DNA of 33,815 nt, taken from positions 2,722 through 36,536 of the forward strand of contig PLAD01000222.1 of NCBI GenBank assembly GCA_003134215.1. Direction: 5' to 3'. Source of the DNA: Armatimonadota bacterium (GTDB taxonomy: Bacteria; Armatimonadota; Armatimonadia; Armatimonadales; Capsulimonadaceae). Of this stretch, positions 1,923 to 8,899 are shown piece by piece. The notes beneath the pieces are model-generated. The model was not told the origin of the DNA and searched no databases. It was given only the letters and a program-made list of their open reading frames with translations. The translations under genes and the position numbers were made by a program. Position 1 is the first letter of the stretch. Every line of letters starts with the position of its first letter.

Positions 1923-1952
1923 TTGCACGACGTCTCCGCAGTCGTGTATAAT
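1923..1952 (+). promoter_or_regulatory. sigma70-like promoter upstream of the truncated tRNA-Gly
   Basis: TTGCAC (1923-1928), 18 nt spacer, TATAAT (1947-1952). Confidence 0.65.
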
Positions 1953-1997: not shown

Positions 1998-2037
1998 GCG
2001 GGAGTAGCTCAGTGGTAGAGCACCTACTTCCCAAGCA
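1998..2037 (+). pseudogene. truncated tRNA-Gly (5' half only)
   Basis: 40 nt matching 39/40 the first 40 nt of the intact tRNA-Gly at 7769 (one G>A in the anticodon stem); similarity stops just after the anticodon loop. Confidence 0.9.
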
Positions 2038-2071
2038 AACCCCTTAGTTTTAGTAATATCCTAGTATAAAT

Positions 2072-2108
2072 AGCCCCCTTCGGTACAATCATTGTATCCG
2101 GCGGGGCT
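2072..2108 (-). terminator. strong stem-loop, possible minus-strand terminator
   Basis: AGCCCC...GGGGCT outer arms with inner GG-TACAAT/ATTGTATCC pairing; on the minus strand followed by a T-rich ATTTATACT. Confidence 0.4.
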
Positions 2109-2353
2109 CGAAGATCTTCACGAGAGGACATTTCATAACTCCTTATTGACAGAATGCTCTATCGGAAGGAATTATCTACCGGCCGGAAACGCGGCGGCTA
2201 TTTGACGCTTACATTGCGCACACCATATGCCCCCAAGTTCTCAGAATACATAATCTGTCGATACGTTCCATGCAATTGATGTTTACCATCGGTACCATGC
2301 AGCTTATAATGGCGTTGTCGTGAGCCAAGTCTAAGCTACTGCCAAGATAGAGT

Positions 2354-3413
2354 TTACGGATTTGCCGTCTTTATAACAAGCTGACCCGAGTTGTCTAAGA
2401 CTGATATAAATGGGTTACTCGAATCCGCACCAGTATAATCCTGATGTGAGCCGTCAAAGCCATCAAAGTGCACTTTCCACGTCCCGTCAGGATAGGGAAC
2501 GGATTGCGAATCTCCCCAATTAAGATTGACCGGCGTGGCGATTGTAACTGGGGGAGCCGTCTGCTACTGACTTTCTGTAAAAGCGATTGAGAACCGAATC
2601 TTTCCCGATGTGCCAAATCTGTGGTGTACCGTTGTGACTTGATACACGACTTGATTACCATTGTCGCTCTGAAACGAAATACTGTAATCGCCTTCGTTTG
2701 GACTTCCCTTGAAAATTTGTTCTGAATGTTGAACTACCTGCCAACCTGAATCGGGACTTACACTATAGGTATTTGTATGGTCATCGTTCCGGCCATCACT
2801 GCCAGAAGTCTGATAGTAATCTGTTGTACGATAAGTCCGGGTTACGGTATTCGGCGCTGGTGTTTAAGTATAGTAGACAGTAATGTTGCCTGGACTACCA
2901 GGTAGTTCACCGATTAATATATTGTAGGTATCCGTGTTGCGATGCTTTTCAATACCAAGCAATGCAGTCGTTTGCCATGGAACGGTAAGTGATCCGTGTA
3001 CATAGCCGAATTGGTGTGTCCCGGCAGGTGTTCCAGCCTCTAGAATGTCGCCGGACGGCACCAGAAACTTTAGAGACTGTGTTGTATTTTGAGCGGCTGT
3101 TTATGTGTGTCCACTAATTGTCAAGGTCGGGGTAAATCCACTTGTTGCAGCGAATTCGAAGTTCCCCTGCATAGAAATCGATATAATGGAGTGCCCGGTG
3201 TTGACCCGAATGACCACATAAGGTGCATTGGTGGCAAGCTGTGAGATAGAGAGTAAGCATCCGGCGGGAATTGCGAAGATCAACTCCTTGGGCATCGTTG
3301 CCCGACTCGCCCCAATCCGCTCGTAGGGAATAGCCGACGTGAGCGATGGACATACGAGCGGATGCGATAAGAATATCAGCGCCGTCGTCTTCGAGGTTCC
3401 CTGGGCGCAGCAT
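2354..3413 (-). pseudogene. modular beta-rich/surface or phage-like protein of unknown family, interrupted by three in-frame stops and a probable upstream frameshift
   Basis: One reading frame from about 3295 down to TAA at 2354-2356 with protein-like composition, broken only by TAA (3101-3103), TAA (2864-2866) and TAG (2564-2566). The overlapping frame MLRPGNLEDDGADILIASARMSIAHVGYSLRADWGESGNDAQGVDLRNSRRMLTLYL (start 3413) looks like its N-terminus. Confidence 0.65.
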
Positions 3414-3708
3414 CAGGTTCAGGCAACTTTACAATTTGTCTGTCCAACAGATGCTGTCGTAATTGATCTGCCGTGAAGGGACATTCGATAAAATCTATCA
3501 TTTGCTCCTTCGAAAGGTTGCCAATTTGCTTTTGCCGCATCGAAAGCATACTGTCGTCGAACTGCTTTTCGCCATGACTAGTCCTAGTTCGCACAGATGA
3601 TTTCTTGCCGTCAAGCCAGTACCAGTACATATTATGATGCGTGGGATCTTCTTCGAAGCCCTTTGCTTGCAAAGCTTTCCTGAATTTGTCCGTGTCGTAT
3701 GTGGCCAT
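3376..3708 (-). CDS. HicA/YcfA-like small protein, candidate toxin
   Basis: 110 aa; layout KALQAKGFEEDPTHHNMYWYWLDGKKSSVRTRTSHGEK resembles the HicA core (GF...H..Y...DGK...SHG). Start overlaps the upstream stop (TAATG). Confidence 0.5.
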   Translation of the reverse strand: MATYDTDKFRKALQAKGFEEDPTHHNMYWYWLDGKKSSVRTRTSHGEKQFDDSMLSMRQKQIGNLSKEQMIDFIECPFTADQLRQHLLDRQIVKLPEPDAAPREPRRRRR

Positions 3709-4778
3709 TAGGCGATTTCCTCCACGGCGTCAACATCGTCGTCAATCAGATCCCTAAGGTCAATAGCGTCCTCAGTCAAGTTTTTATCCAACTCGCCAAT
3801 CAGTCCGTCGTAGAGAAAGGCAAATTCCTCATGGAGTTGATACACGGCTTGTTGACGATCTGAAGAAAAGGCGACAATACCGTATTTTGGACATTCGTAG
3901 ACCCAAAGCTCATTTCGATACGCCGGGAAACAACTGACCGGGGCAACTAGCTTAAAACGCCGCTTTTGCCACATGAACGAACCAATATTGAATGGAGAAA
4001 GATCAACTGTTGAAACATCGTATACATCGTCAACCTGCCGTACTGACCCATCGTAATTGAGTTGAACGCTCCCTATGACCTCTACGACTGAACCAGCAAC
4101 CAATTGCGATATCTGTTCTTCCATGTCCGAAGGATACAGACATAGTATTTCCCGAAAGGCATGTCTGACGACAATATGCCGTGAACCAGCCTTTACACGG
4201 ATTTCTACTAAATCACCTACAATTCGTTGAACGTCAGCTTCAGATGAAGAAGATGATAACTCAAAATAATTGCTGATCTGGTGCCTAGTCAGCGGAGTAA
4301 GCACTGCCTTGAAGACACCGGTACCGTTGCCAATAAAGACCGACAAACCTTCATCGTCTCGTGGACACATCTGCTGAAGAGACTTGAGGGTTCTTGCTCT
4401 TCCAACGGAATCTGGCATGAGACGTATAAGCTCATTGTCATTCTTGTTATTAATCGCAGACACTACATTCGGTAAGTCTTGGATGGCCTCAACCCCTAAA
4501 TCGGGCATTCCCGGAAGAACAGGATTGCTGCCAAGTTCCGAAGTTAGCGTAAGGCTTCCGGCTTCCGTCTTGGATAGAAACAGTTCGCACGATGCCCGAA
4601 TATAGCTTGGCCATGTTCCACGTGAAGCCACGCCACTCGTACTCTTCGATAGCGCAAGATTGTATAGCGTGGTCTGGGCAGCACCAAGCTTCGAAGCTAG
4701 GGCAGCGAACGAAATGCGCCCTTCGCTAACGGCTTCACCATCTAATTTAATTGTAAGCGTACGCTCGGTAGTTGCCAT
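3708..4778 (-). CDS. hypothetical protein, coupled partner of the HicA-like ORF
   Basis: 356 aa, overlapping stop/start with the downstream small ORF; C-terminus (ELWVYECPKYGIVAFSSDRQQAVYQLHEEF...) has a HicB-like feel but no firm family. Confidence 0.6.
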   Translation of the reverse strand: MATTERTLTIKLDGEAVSEGRISFAALASKLGAAQTTLYNLALSKSTSGVASRGTWPSYIRASCELFLSKTEAGSLTLTSELGSNPVLPGMPDLGVEAIQDLPNVVSAINNKNDNELIRLMPDSVGRARTLKSLQQMCPRDDEGLSVFIGNGTGVFKAVLTPLTRHQISNYFELSSSSSEADVQRIVGDLVEIRVKAGSRHIVVRHAFREILCLYPSDMEEQISQLVAGSVVEVIGSVQLNYDGSVRQVDDVYDVSTVDLSPFNIGSFMWQKRRFKLVAPVSCFPAYRNELWVYECPKYGIVAFSSDRQQAVYQLHEEFAFLYDGLIGELDKNLTEDAIDLRDLIDDDVDAVEEIA

Positions 4779-4945
4779 AATACTTGCCCAAAAAGTAGCT
4801 TGCTAACCGAATATTTGCTTGGTCGATGCGATTTTCGCTGATGCAAAGGACGAATTCTGCATTGTACCCTTCTGAACGAAGGCTTAGTGCAAGATTTTGA
4901 TAGCCACACCTTATATTCCACGATTGGAGGGCTAGCGCTAGTCAA

Positions 4946-5066
4946 TAATCCCGTTCGGGAATATTTTTTGAAGTCGCACATCCTTCATCATAAAATAATC
5001 CCTGACGGTAATATTTAGTTGGTTTTGCCTCTTGACTGGTATAATATTCCCGTTCGGTAAACATTT
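4946..5066 (+). promoter_or_regulatory. triple operator-like repeat upstream of hipB
   Basis: TAATCCCGTTCGGGAATATTT (4946), TAATCCCTGACGGTAATATTT (4996), TATTCCCGTTCGGTAAACATTT (5045), at 50 and 49 nt spacing; third copy overlaps an extended -10 (TGGTATAAT). Confidence 0.75.
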
Positions 5067-5075
5067 AACATTACC

Positions 5076-5315
5076 ATGAAATACACTCCCGCACAACTAG
5101 GCAAACTGATACGATCTACCCGCAAGTCGCTCCGAGTGACGCAGGAGCAACTCGCCATGACTGCCGGAACGGGCTTGCGATTCATAATCGACCTCGAAAA
5201 AGGGAAGCCGACGTGCGAAATTGGCAAGGCGCTCACCGTGCTGCAAACCCTCGGTATTGATATGACGTTGGTGCCGCCAAAGAATAGCGTCGAAGGTGAA
5301 GCGGAGGCGCAGTGA
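5076..5315 (+). CDS. hipB: HipB-like Xre-family HTH antitoxin
   Basis: 79 aa HTH (LIRSTRKSLRVTQEQLAMTAGTGLRFIIDLEKGKPTCEIGKALTVLQTLGIDM), directly upstream of HipA. Confidence 0.9.
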   Translation: MKYTPAQLGKLIRSTRKSLRVTQEQLAMTAGTGLRFIIDLEKGKPTCEIGKALTVLQTLGIDMTLVPPKNSVEGEAEAQ

Positions 5316-6559
5316 TGGCTCGAACCCTCGATGTATACCTCCACCATAACCTCGTCGGGCACCTTATCCAGGATGACCACGGCGACATGGTGTTCGATTA
5401 CGCTGAAAGTTGGCTGAGCCGACCGAACGTCATCGCCCTTTCTAACTCACTGCCGCTTCGTGCCGAGCGCTTCGGTCGCAACGAATGCCGTGGCTATTTT
5501 GGCGGTATCCTGCCGGAATCGGATAAGAGGGATATCATCGCCAGAAACCTAGGCATAAGCTCTAAGAACGATTTCGCAATGCTGGAGCGCATCGGCGGCG
5601 AATGCGCCGGTGCGGTGACATTCGTTGCCCCAGGCGAGGATCTGCCTGAGGACCAAGACCGTTACCGCATACTAAGTGGTTCTGAATTGGCGGATATCCT
5701 TCGCTCACTGCCTCGCCGACCGCTCATGGCCGGAGCCGACGATGTTCGCCTTTCGCTGGCAGGTGCGCAGGACAAGATTGCAGTCCGTATCGTCGGCGAC
5801 GAAATATCGATTCCCCTCGGCGGAGCGCCAAGCACCCACATTCTGAAGCCAGCCATCGAGCGGTTTCAAAGTGTCGTTTTCAACGAATCGTTCTGCATGA
5901 CCCTTGCCCAACGAATCGGGCTGCCGGTCGCCCATGTGGAAACAGGCAAGGTTGAGGATATCGATTATCTCGCCGTTAAGCGTTACGACAGGAACTTCAC
6001 GGATGCGGGGACATTGGAGCGGCTTCACCAAGAGGACTTTTGCCAGGCACTCGGGATTGCCTCCGAACAGAAATATCAGAACGAGGGTGGTCCCTCACTT
6101 CAGCAATCCTTCGAACTGGTCCGTGAAACGTCGGCACTGCCTGTCATCGACCTAACGACTTTGCTCGATGGCGTTCTCTTCAACTTCCTAATTGGCAACA
6201 ACGACGCCCATGGCAAGAACTTTTCGCTTCTTCGCACGATTGTAAGCGGGAAGGCCACGATTCGCCTCGCCCCGTTCTATGACCTTCTGAGCACCGCCTT
6301 TTATCCCGAGCTATCAACGAAGATGGCGATGAAGTTCGGCGGCGAGTACGACTCTGAGAAAGTCGTAGCAAAACACTTCGACAGATTCGCCCAAGATGCA
6401 AATCTTGGCAAGGCGATGGTAAAGCGGCGAGTGAAGGAAGAAGTGGAGGCGGTGATATCAACGCTGGCGACGATGCCGGTGGATAGGCAGGTCGCCGATG
6501 ACATCGCCTCGCTCATCCGGCGGCGTTGCGAGAAGACGTTGGTGCGGCTCGGAGATTGA
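5312..6559 (+). CDS. hipA: HipA family serine/threonine kinase toxin
   Basis: 415 aa; HipA motifs STHILKP, GNNDAHGKNFSLL, LAPFYDLLST. Start may be GTG 5312 or ATG 5315. Confidence 0.92.
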   Translation: MMARTLDVYLHHNLVGHLIQDDHGDMVFDYAESWLSRPNVIALSNSLPLRAERFGRNECRGYFGGILPESDKRDIIARNLGISSKNDFAMLERIGGECAGAVTFVAPGEDLPEDQDRYRILSGSELADILRSLPRRPLMAGADDVRLSLAGAQDKIAVRIVGDEISIPLGGAPSTHILKPAIERFQSVVFNESFCMTLAQRIGLPVAHVETGKVEDIDYLAVKRYDRNFTDAGTLERLHQEDFCQALGIASEQKYQNEGGPSLQQSFELVRETSALPVIDLTTLLDGVLFNFLIGNNDAHGKNFSLLRTIVSGKATIRLAPFYDLLSTAFYPELSTKMAMKFGGEYDSEKVVAKHFDRFAQDANLGKAMVKRRVKEEVEAVISTLATMPVDRQVADDIASLIRRRCEKTLVRLGD

Positions 6560-6643
6560 ACCTTATTCGTCGGCCCGTCTAATCTTATGTGATTGTGGTC
6601 GAAAGGTGCGCCCTAATCTCAGCGCCAATACTTGATGGACCTA

Positions 6644-7590
6644 CTAACGCTGGCGCAGCGTATACACCGCCACCTTAACCCCCGTCCCGCTGATACCATA
6701 AACCGGCTCCGGCAATCCATGCCTACGCATCTCTTCGAACATGCGCCGGATGCCGCCAGTGGATTCCCGAACATATCCAGTCATGTCAGCTAATACACGG
6801 GCGATATGCGGGTTACGGGAATACCGAGCGTTTTGTATGTTCTGAACACGAACCAGCCCCGGTAGCCGACCAAGGCTTTCGACTTCCAGGCGATCCTCGA
6901 AAAGCGTCACCCGAATGCCGTCGCCCTGTAAACTGTAAGAACGGTGCGTCACTGCATTGACGATAGCTTCAAACCAGGCAAACTCGGGGAGAAGCGGGAT
7001 TCGTTCGAAACGACCACCCGGTACTTGGCGAATGACGGAGCCAAGCTTTTCCGCAACTAGTTCCCTTGTGGCGTCAATGATCTGCGGTATAGTTCCTTCG
7101 ATGCGGATGTCTTCAGACAGGTTCGACTGTGTTCCTGTTTCTACGGTCATTCCTCGGTACTGAAGGAAGCGCACATATGACCACACCGGCGTCGTGCGTC
7201 CAAAGAGCAGCCGTCCGGCTTGCGTAACGCCTGTTCGATTGCCGGTGCCGAGGTAAAGTCCACGGCTCCTCAGAAGTGCAGCGGTATCAGTAGCACCGAC
7301 CTTGTGCTTGTAAGCAGCGATAGCTTCGTCATTGAGGTCTTCCAGCGTCAGGTCGTGCACAATCGTTCCATCGCAAATTGACTCGCCCTTGTCGAACGCA
7401 AGGTCCCGCTCTTCGGTCGGCCCGAGCCGCCGGTTTTCGTCGCCGACACGAAGAAAACATTCGTGCTTCTTGTTGCGGTGGATTGCTCACCGGCCTCTTT
7501 ATCGAGCACGAGGATACGGTCATCCTCTCCTTTGTCATTCGTGCAATCGATATAAGCAACTGCATGACTAACGAAGCGTAGAATCGGTAG
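6644..7590 (-). pseudogene. AlbA_2/RecG-like ATP-binding protein, 5'-truncated and frameshifted
   Basis: ORF 6644-7360 carries the RecG-like ATP-binding C-terminal region (EAIVNAVTHRSYSLQGDGIRVTLFEDRLEVESLG). The same frame extends upstream as IHRNKKHECFLRVGDENRRLGPTEERDLAFDKGE, then shifts frame near 7485-7492 to LPILRFVSHAVAYIDCTNDKGEDDRILVLDKEAGE. Confidence 0.75.
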
Positions 7591-7768
7591 TCATGGAGCT
7601 AGGAAGCGTCCTTGACAAGGCCCCTCGATAGGTTAGCAGGATTCTCCCAAACGCCCCTCGCTACCGATTTTCTGCCAAAAAAATGACCTAGACTCAAAAT
7701 CACCGTGCCGGACATGGTAAAATAATCGAGTCCAGCACGTTTTGAGCGTGAGGGGCTATGTTACTTTT

Positions 7769-7840
7769 GCGGGAGTAGCTCAGTGGTAGAGCACCTGCTT
7801 CCCAAGCAGGGTGTCGCGGGTTCGATCCCCGTCTCCCGCT
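7769..7840 (+). tRNA. tRNA-Gly(CCC)
   Basis: GCGGGAG/CTCCCGC acceptor stem, CCTGC-TTCCCAA-GCAGG anticodon arm (anticodon CCC), GCGGG-TTCGATC-CCCGT T arm. Confidence 0.96.
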
Positions 7841-8240: not shown

Positions 8241-8654
8241 TTAAGTGTTCAATACATCGATCTTCTCTGTTCTTGCTGCGGAAATCAGTTCGGCGTCTAG
8301 TGTCGCAAGAGGAAGCGCACGACGAATTGCAAGCTCAAGATAGGCTGCGTCATAGAGGGTCAAACGATGTCGCTCTGCTAGGTCTAAGGTTTCCGTCCAC
8401 GCATGCACATTTGTTTCAGTGTCGATAGATATCGGCAATGACAAGAGATCGGCTAATGTTGCGTCCCGAAAGGCCGCGTCGGTTCTGGCGCGCCGCACTC
8501 CCATTTCGAGAACGTTTGCAACCTCAAGACGCCATAGTCCAGGGACCCATGCGCCCTCTGCTAGCACCTTCTCAAAAACCAAACGGGTACCTGATGTGTT
8601 CTCGTTATTATAGGCCCAAGCTAACGCAATCGAAGCATCAAGGACCAAGCTCAC
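8241..8654 (-). CDS. vapC: VapC-type PIN domain toxin
   Basis: 137 aa; SLVLDASIALAW start, LTLYDAAYLELAIRRALPLATLDAEL PIN motif. Confidence 0.9.
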   Translation of the reverse strand: MSLVLDASIALAWAYNNENTSGTRLVFEKVLAEGAWVPGLWRLEVANVLEMGVRRARTDAAFRDATLADLLSLPISIDTETNVHAWTETLDLAERHRLTLYDAAYLELAIRRALPLATLDAELISAARTEKIDVLNT

Positions 8655-8899
8655 GGACGACCTTTGTCTCTCTCCGTCTTCAATTCGCTCCAGTTGAAAT
8701 CAACCTTGTTACGCGCCGCCCTTTCTTCAAGTCGCTGTGCCGCAGCGCGCGCCTGCGCACGATCGTTGCCTTCGACATTTGGAACAAGGCGGGCAACTGG
8801 CCGTCCATGGCGTGTGATTATGATTTCCTCTCCTTGTTCGACACGGCTGAGCAGAGATCCCAATGTGTTCTTTGCCTCAAAGGCTCCAATTTCGTGCAC
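8651..8899 (-). CDS. vapB: Phd/YefM-type antitoxin (VapB)
   Basis: 82 aa; FEAKNTLGSLLSRVEQGEEIIITRHGRPVARLVP; 4 nt overlap with vapC; GTG start. Confidence 0.9.
   Translation of the reverse strand: MHEIGAFEAKNTLGSLLSRVEQGEEIIITRHGRPVARLVPNVEGNDRAQARAAAQRLEERAARNKVDFNWSELKTERDKGRP

Follow-up and report, generated by a model that had tools for sequence, protein, structure and literature searches.

In this study we analyzed a stretch of 33,815 nucleotides, here referred to as the window (C84:2722-36536), and found between an orphan 5' half of a tRNA-Gly(CCC) gene and an intact tRNA-Gly(CCC) gene an island of about 5.77 kb. The interval from 2038 to about 7806 is probably the relic of an integrative element that had inserted into tRNA-Gly(CCC) and carried a copy of the 5' half of this gene. 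The window lies on a contig of a metagenome-assembled genome (MAG; here G000) with an assembly of 3.6 Mb in 418 contigs and 87.7% completeness, which belongs to the family Capsulimonadaceae of the phylum Armatimonadota. For comparison, 20 genomes of relatives were searched with the tRNA and its surroundings, six relatives of the same family (G004 among them) were inspected, and the phylum-wide searches covered 291 Armatimonadota genomes, that is, 290 besides the window genome. The coordinates of all features are compiled in Table 1.

The tRNA-Gly(CCC) at 7769-7840 is the single complete tRNA detected in the window by ARAGORN. Its first 40 nucleotides (7769-7808) are found again at 1998-2037 with 39 of 40 positions identical, while the runner-up among the ungapped 40-nt matches on both strands of the whole window shares merely 22 of 40. 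In the whole-genome search the half reached E = 4.9e-13, and chance is therefore excluded. The identity between the two copies ends just past the anticodon loop, after TTCCCAA and before GCA. The duplication, the intact gene at the right end and the place of the break had all been proposed in the original prediction, which was made from the letters alone, and all three were confirmed. The sole mismatch is located at position 29, with A in the orphan and G in the intact gene; this substitution would disrupt the anticodon stem, as expected of a non-functional leftover. TTGACA/TATAAT is present 5' of the tRNA-Gly(CCC) genes in the relatives, and the TATAAT hexamer found 5' of the orphan half is presumably the remnant of such a native promoter. 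The consensus promoter scan called no + strand promoter at this hexamer because a good -35 is absent.

Among the 20 relatives, the search yielded whole tRNA genes and a single match that ended inside the tRNA, on contig C42 of G004. It consists of an orphan 5' half identical over 38 of 38 nt (L009:10010-10047), with the upstream region present and the tRNA 3' half absent. The break falls at the anticodon loop in both genomes, at nt 40 in the window and nt 38 in G004. About 190 bp after the G004 half starts an open reading frame (ORF) of about 390 aa encoding a tyrosine recombinase (L009:10236-11411), which matches PF00589 (3.1e-6) and the phrog_1 integrase (3.8e-14). Motif 2 of this integrase, read by eye, is YSLK where HxxR is usual, and appears atypical. 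No relative but itself was found in the 291 phylum genomes (E <= 1e-10), no close relative in phages, plasmids or IMG/VR, and no relative by sequence in the PDB; a single-sequence structure prediction, with a mean predicted local distance difference test (pLDDT) score of 38, was unusable and was not used. G004 also possesses an intact tRNA-Gly(CCC), 97% identical to that of the window, near the end of contig C45, with a third, different upstream region in which a small regulator gene of helix-turn-helix (HTH) type precedes the tRNA (by eye). The half with the integrase on C42 and the intact tRNA on C45 would be the two ends of one element split by a contig gap. In addition, a Fic-domain protein (L009:12076-13557) adjoins the G004 integrase and matches the PADLOC candidate defence family PDC-S24 (1.2e-175).

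The 139 nt directly preceding the intact tRNA of the window (7630-7768) and the sequence 5' of the orphan half in G004 are identical at 113 positions (81%), and no further match to this module was detected in the phylum genomes beyond G004. In G000 the module and the 5' half run on into the 3' half of the tRNA, and in G004 they run into the end that bears the integrase; the two sequences part at tRNA nt 38/39. This is what a module travelling in the attachment site (attP) of an element predicts. Moreover, the extended -10 of the module, TGG-TAAAAT, is conserved in G004, and would be the promoter of the element as judged from its sequence; the consensus scan does not recognise this motif. In G004 two successive insertions at this tRNA may have taken place, the module representing the right-hand end of the first. 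A truncated-looking ORF for a secreted protein (L009:9500-9868) stops 3 bp before the module, and the junction at its end suggests an insertion or deletion. A 40-bp match to the module at a second G004 integrase locus (L043) was rejected as chance, lying inside an apparent integrase coding sequence.

From these data the following course of events is proposed. A small integrative element would have entered the host tRNA-Gly(CCC) by site-specific insertion at its anticodon loop; according to the literature, many tyrosine integrases act on the DNA of this loop, which is symmetric. In addition to a new promoter, the attachment site of the element would have held its own copy of the 5' half of the tRNA. 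Strand exchange at the loop would then have orphaned the native promoter and the native 5' half on the left, while on the right an intact tRNA would have been rebuilt from the promoter and 5' half of the element and the 3' half of the host. The integrase may have been lost later or may never have been present; alternatively, the island may have been mobilised in trans. Afterwards the left third of the island would have decayed, with the HipBA pair remaining intact. The duplication, the break at the loop, the accessory content and the module shared with a relative, where it adjoins a half tRNA and an integrase, are directly observed, and we infer the direction of the event, the activity of the promoter and the loss of the integrase. 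Its decayed genes and its lack of an integrase mark the island either as a relic or as an element mobilised in trans.

The surroundings of the tRNA in the six family relatives were then used for locating the native site. Each of them has a single intact copy of tRNA-Gly(CCC), and in five of the six tRNA-Cys follows at about 25-50 bp; in the sixth, G004, tRNA-Cys is separate. In G001 and G005, genes for a cyclophilin and an acylphosphatase stand about 1.4-2 kb 5' of tRNA-Gly(CCC). Counterparts of both genes occur in G000 (70-75% and 56%, respectively). They keep their order and orientation and lie on the contig of the window, a short way beyond the window's left edge and about 2 kb 5' of the orphan half. 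This synteny indicates that the native site is probably marked by the orphan half and that the promoter before the intact gene arrived later; the left side of the island is thus probably native.

Several observations weigh against the relic of a 5'-half element. First, the flanks are not simply those of the relatives. Directly left of the orphan half are PAP2 and Gfo/Idh genes, both of which are elsewhere in the relatives, the Gfo/Idh gene not being beside a tRNA there. The tRNA-Cys of G000 lies on another contig (C230:17736-17807; L083:9737-9808) with its usual glutaredoxin neighbour, and the right flank of the window is itself accessory and matches none of the relatives, so that an extra rearrangement between Gly and Cys must be assumed. 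Second, the original prediction had looked to related genomes for an empty site, in which one tRNA-Gly(CCC) would be continuous with both flanks. No clean one was found by synteny among the relatives, where a match existed for the left flank alone, and in those keeping the Gly-Cys pair the tRNA is not followed by the right flank of the window. An orphan tRNA 3' half next to tRNA-Cys was looked for and not found. Third, as the original prediction had stated, no integrase is recognisable in the interval: a PF00589 search of G000 gave no match on this contig, and tblastn with the G004 integrase gave none either, an integrase fragment in the interval being likewise unrecognised. Fourth, the window island and the G004 element have left ends that differ beyond the tRNA half. 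Finally, the shared module could be an inherited promoter. The idea of the original prediction that the new 5' half and its promoter came from an element is partly supported: the half, integrase and module of G004 give it independent backing, and the empty site is lacking.

The interval shows no integrase, and none would be needed if the site had once held two tRNA-Gly(CCC) genes and the first had been cut short by a deletion or insertion of the ordinary kind; the interval would then be what separated the two genes. This explanation was named as an alternative in the original prediction, but we consider it unlikely. The six relatives, with their single intact gene that is paired with tRNA-Cys in five of them, give it no support, an ordinary deletion need not end at the anticodon loop as both breaks do (nt 40 in the window, nt 38 in G004), and the break in G004 stands beside an integrase.

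About equally unlikely is the reading that the right tRNA with module 7630-7768 is native and was inherited by G000 and G004 from a common ancestor. The G004 copy would then have been split by its element, leaving the module and half as its native left side, and the left half in the window would come from some other event. The module is indeed common to exactly these two genomes, and in G004 it precedes the orphan half as a native promoter would. However, the core genes known from the surroundings of this tRNA in G001 and G005 lie by the orphan half of the window and not by its intact gene, the G004 module begins directly after the truncated-looking L009:9500-9868 like an inserted end, and the left orphan half is left unexplained. 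An assembly artefact, in which contig pieces were joined at the 40-nt tRNA repeat, is very improbable: such a repeat can mislead assemblers in a MAG as fragmented and incomplete as this one, but the copies are 5.7 kb apart in one contig with all flanks different, they differ by a substitution, and an independent half of the same kind occurs in G004.

The content of the interval is that of accessory DNA. The GC content is 45-50% across roughly 2000-5000 versus 52-58% to the left. The HipBA pair, a predicted toxin-antitoxin system, is intact, with a HipB-type HTH protein followed by a HipA kinase that has both domains, and HipA was not found in the six family relatives. The ATP-binding gene behind it is decayed, stop codons interrupting its 5' part. 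Relatives of the 356-aa ORF are remote and were detected in five of the 290 other phylum genomes and on one plasmid of Geminocystis (a cyanobacterium), with 22-43% identity, the 43% over a short stretch only. Judged from their distribution, HipA and this ORF are not core. The accessory character claimed for the interval in the original prediction is confirmed. As to the toxin-antitoxin-like genes mentioned there, HipBA is clear, but the pair at 3376-4778 has no family match; its 110-aa ORF may encode a small toxin. No Pfam match was obtained for the small ORFs that were searched, most of which lie in 2395-3413 and 7329-7581. The hairpin just inside the G004 element end is significantly more stable than its shuffles (z -4.68). 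To the right of the window island, a pair of PIN-domain toxin and Phd/YefM antitoxin (8241-8899) lies a short distance from the intact tRNA, and the right flank further includes, as read by eye, a UGM-like flavoprotein and glycosyltransferases.

Table 1. Features of the tRNA-Gly(CCC) island and its borders (window positions).
Feature	Position	Strand	Remarks
TATAAT hexamer before the orphan half, presumably left over from the native promoter of the tRNA	1946..1951	+	read from sequence
Orphan 5' half of tRNA-Gly(CCC)	1998..2037	+	39/40 with 7769-7808; identity runs to just past the anticodon loop
Hairpin just inside the left end	2072..2108	+	stability against shuffles z -1.16, not significant
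Non-coding or decayed lower-GC DNA with small ORFs lacking family matches	2109..3413	.	about 1.3 kb, apparently non-coding
110-aa ORF, cargo, no family match	3376..3708	-	
356-aa ORF, no family match	3708..4778	-	remote relatives only
HipB-type antitoxin (Y4mF family)	5076..5315	+	TIGR03070 above cut-off (NCBIfam); PF12844
HipA-type toxin kinase	5312..6559	+	PF07804 1.2e-54, PF13657 1.4e-24
Decayed AlbA/RecG-C-like ATP-binding gene	6644..7485	-	PF13749; phrog_12156 2.2e-48, starting at profile position 163
Upstream module with putative element-borne promoter (TGG-TAAAAT extended -10) preceding the new 5' half	7630..7768	+	81% identity with G004
Intact tRNA-Gly(CCC)	7769..7840	+	5' half presumed element-derived, 3' half host-derived (attR side)

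As a more general and quite tentative proposal, which we regard as more doubtful than true, Capsulimonadaceae may carry lineage-restricted small elements that have tRNA-Gly(CCC) as their specific target and show the rare 5'-half polarity. Such elements would use a divergent integrase without close relatives in the searched collections and could insert successively at one gene, each bringing its own promoter, and members lacking an integrase would be moved in trans. If this were true, the regulation of the tRNA would be replaced at each successive insertion. Replacing the front half of a tRNA also replaces its promoter, and each integration of this kind would give the element control of a host tRNA. 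With two cases, one of them with an integrase, the little-studied Capsulimonadaceae offer a place for testing the effect on tRNA expression.

The orientation of the island, called unusual in the original prediction, is indeed rare but was already known. Of the 3,919 tRNA/tmRNA islands in Islander, 3,760 have a 3' fragment and 159, or about 4%, a 5' fragment (PMC4383910), and the 5'-half arrangement is seldom met in bacteria according to a review. Like the 5'-fragment islands of Islander, the window island is bounded by an intact tRNA and, upstream of it and in the same orientation, by a 5' fragment of that gene. The crossover in the anticodon loop is also shared, and its length of about 5.77 kb is within the Islander range of 2-200 kb (PMC4383910). 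The relatives have a single uninterrupted tRNA-Gly(CCC), and the left flank of the window matches two of them (cyclophilin, acylphosphatase), the right flank none. Unlike Islander islands, for which an integrase inside is required (PMC4383910), the interval of the window has none, while G004 has one beside its half. Because no tyrosine integrase is present in the interval, we filed the window island as a relic deriving from, or working like, the 5'-fragment tDNA islands.

The archaeal element pTN3 of Thermococcales offers a second comparison. Common to its attP and attB are 41 bp from the 5' half of a tRNA, and its integration rebuilds a full tRNA that is cut off from the original promoter (PMC5495485, PMC8371274). 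As in pTN3, attB here would, by sequence comparison, be the 5' half of a tRNA gene; in contrast, attP of pTN3 lies within the integrase gene, which is cut in two when the element integrates, whereas the integrase ORF of G004 is whole and located about 190 bp inside the end. An element of ordinary polarity is found in G000 itself, at an intact tRNA-Gly(GCC) on C224 (L048:4807-4878) with an integrase downstream, the identical 3' half of this tRNA being orphaned on C172 (L010:1395-1436). When the other integrase loci of the family were scanned for half tRNAs, only this element and whole tRNAs were found. It shares with the 5'-half elements the tyrosine integrase, a tRNA-Gly target and the break in the anticodon loop. 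However, unlike in the window, its intact gene retains its own promoter and the orphan is a 3' half. G000 therefore harbours both polarities, each at a different tRNA-Gly gene. The phages of tRNA-dependent lysogeny likewise use a host tRNA gene as integration site, but in their case no tRNA is restored at the junction, whereas the tRNA of the window is intact (PMC10865867). The 5'-fragment polarity is thus rare and known, and the window is a new example of an uncommon known configuration, in general terms a modest addition to a class that is seldom documented in bacteria.

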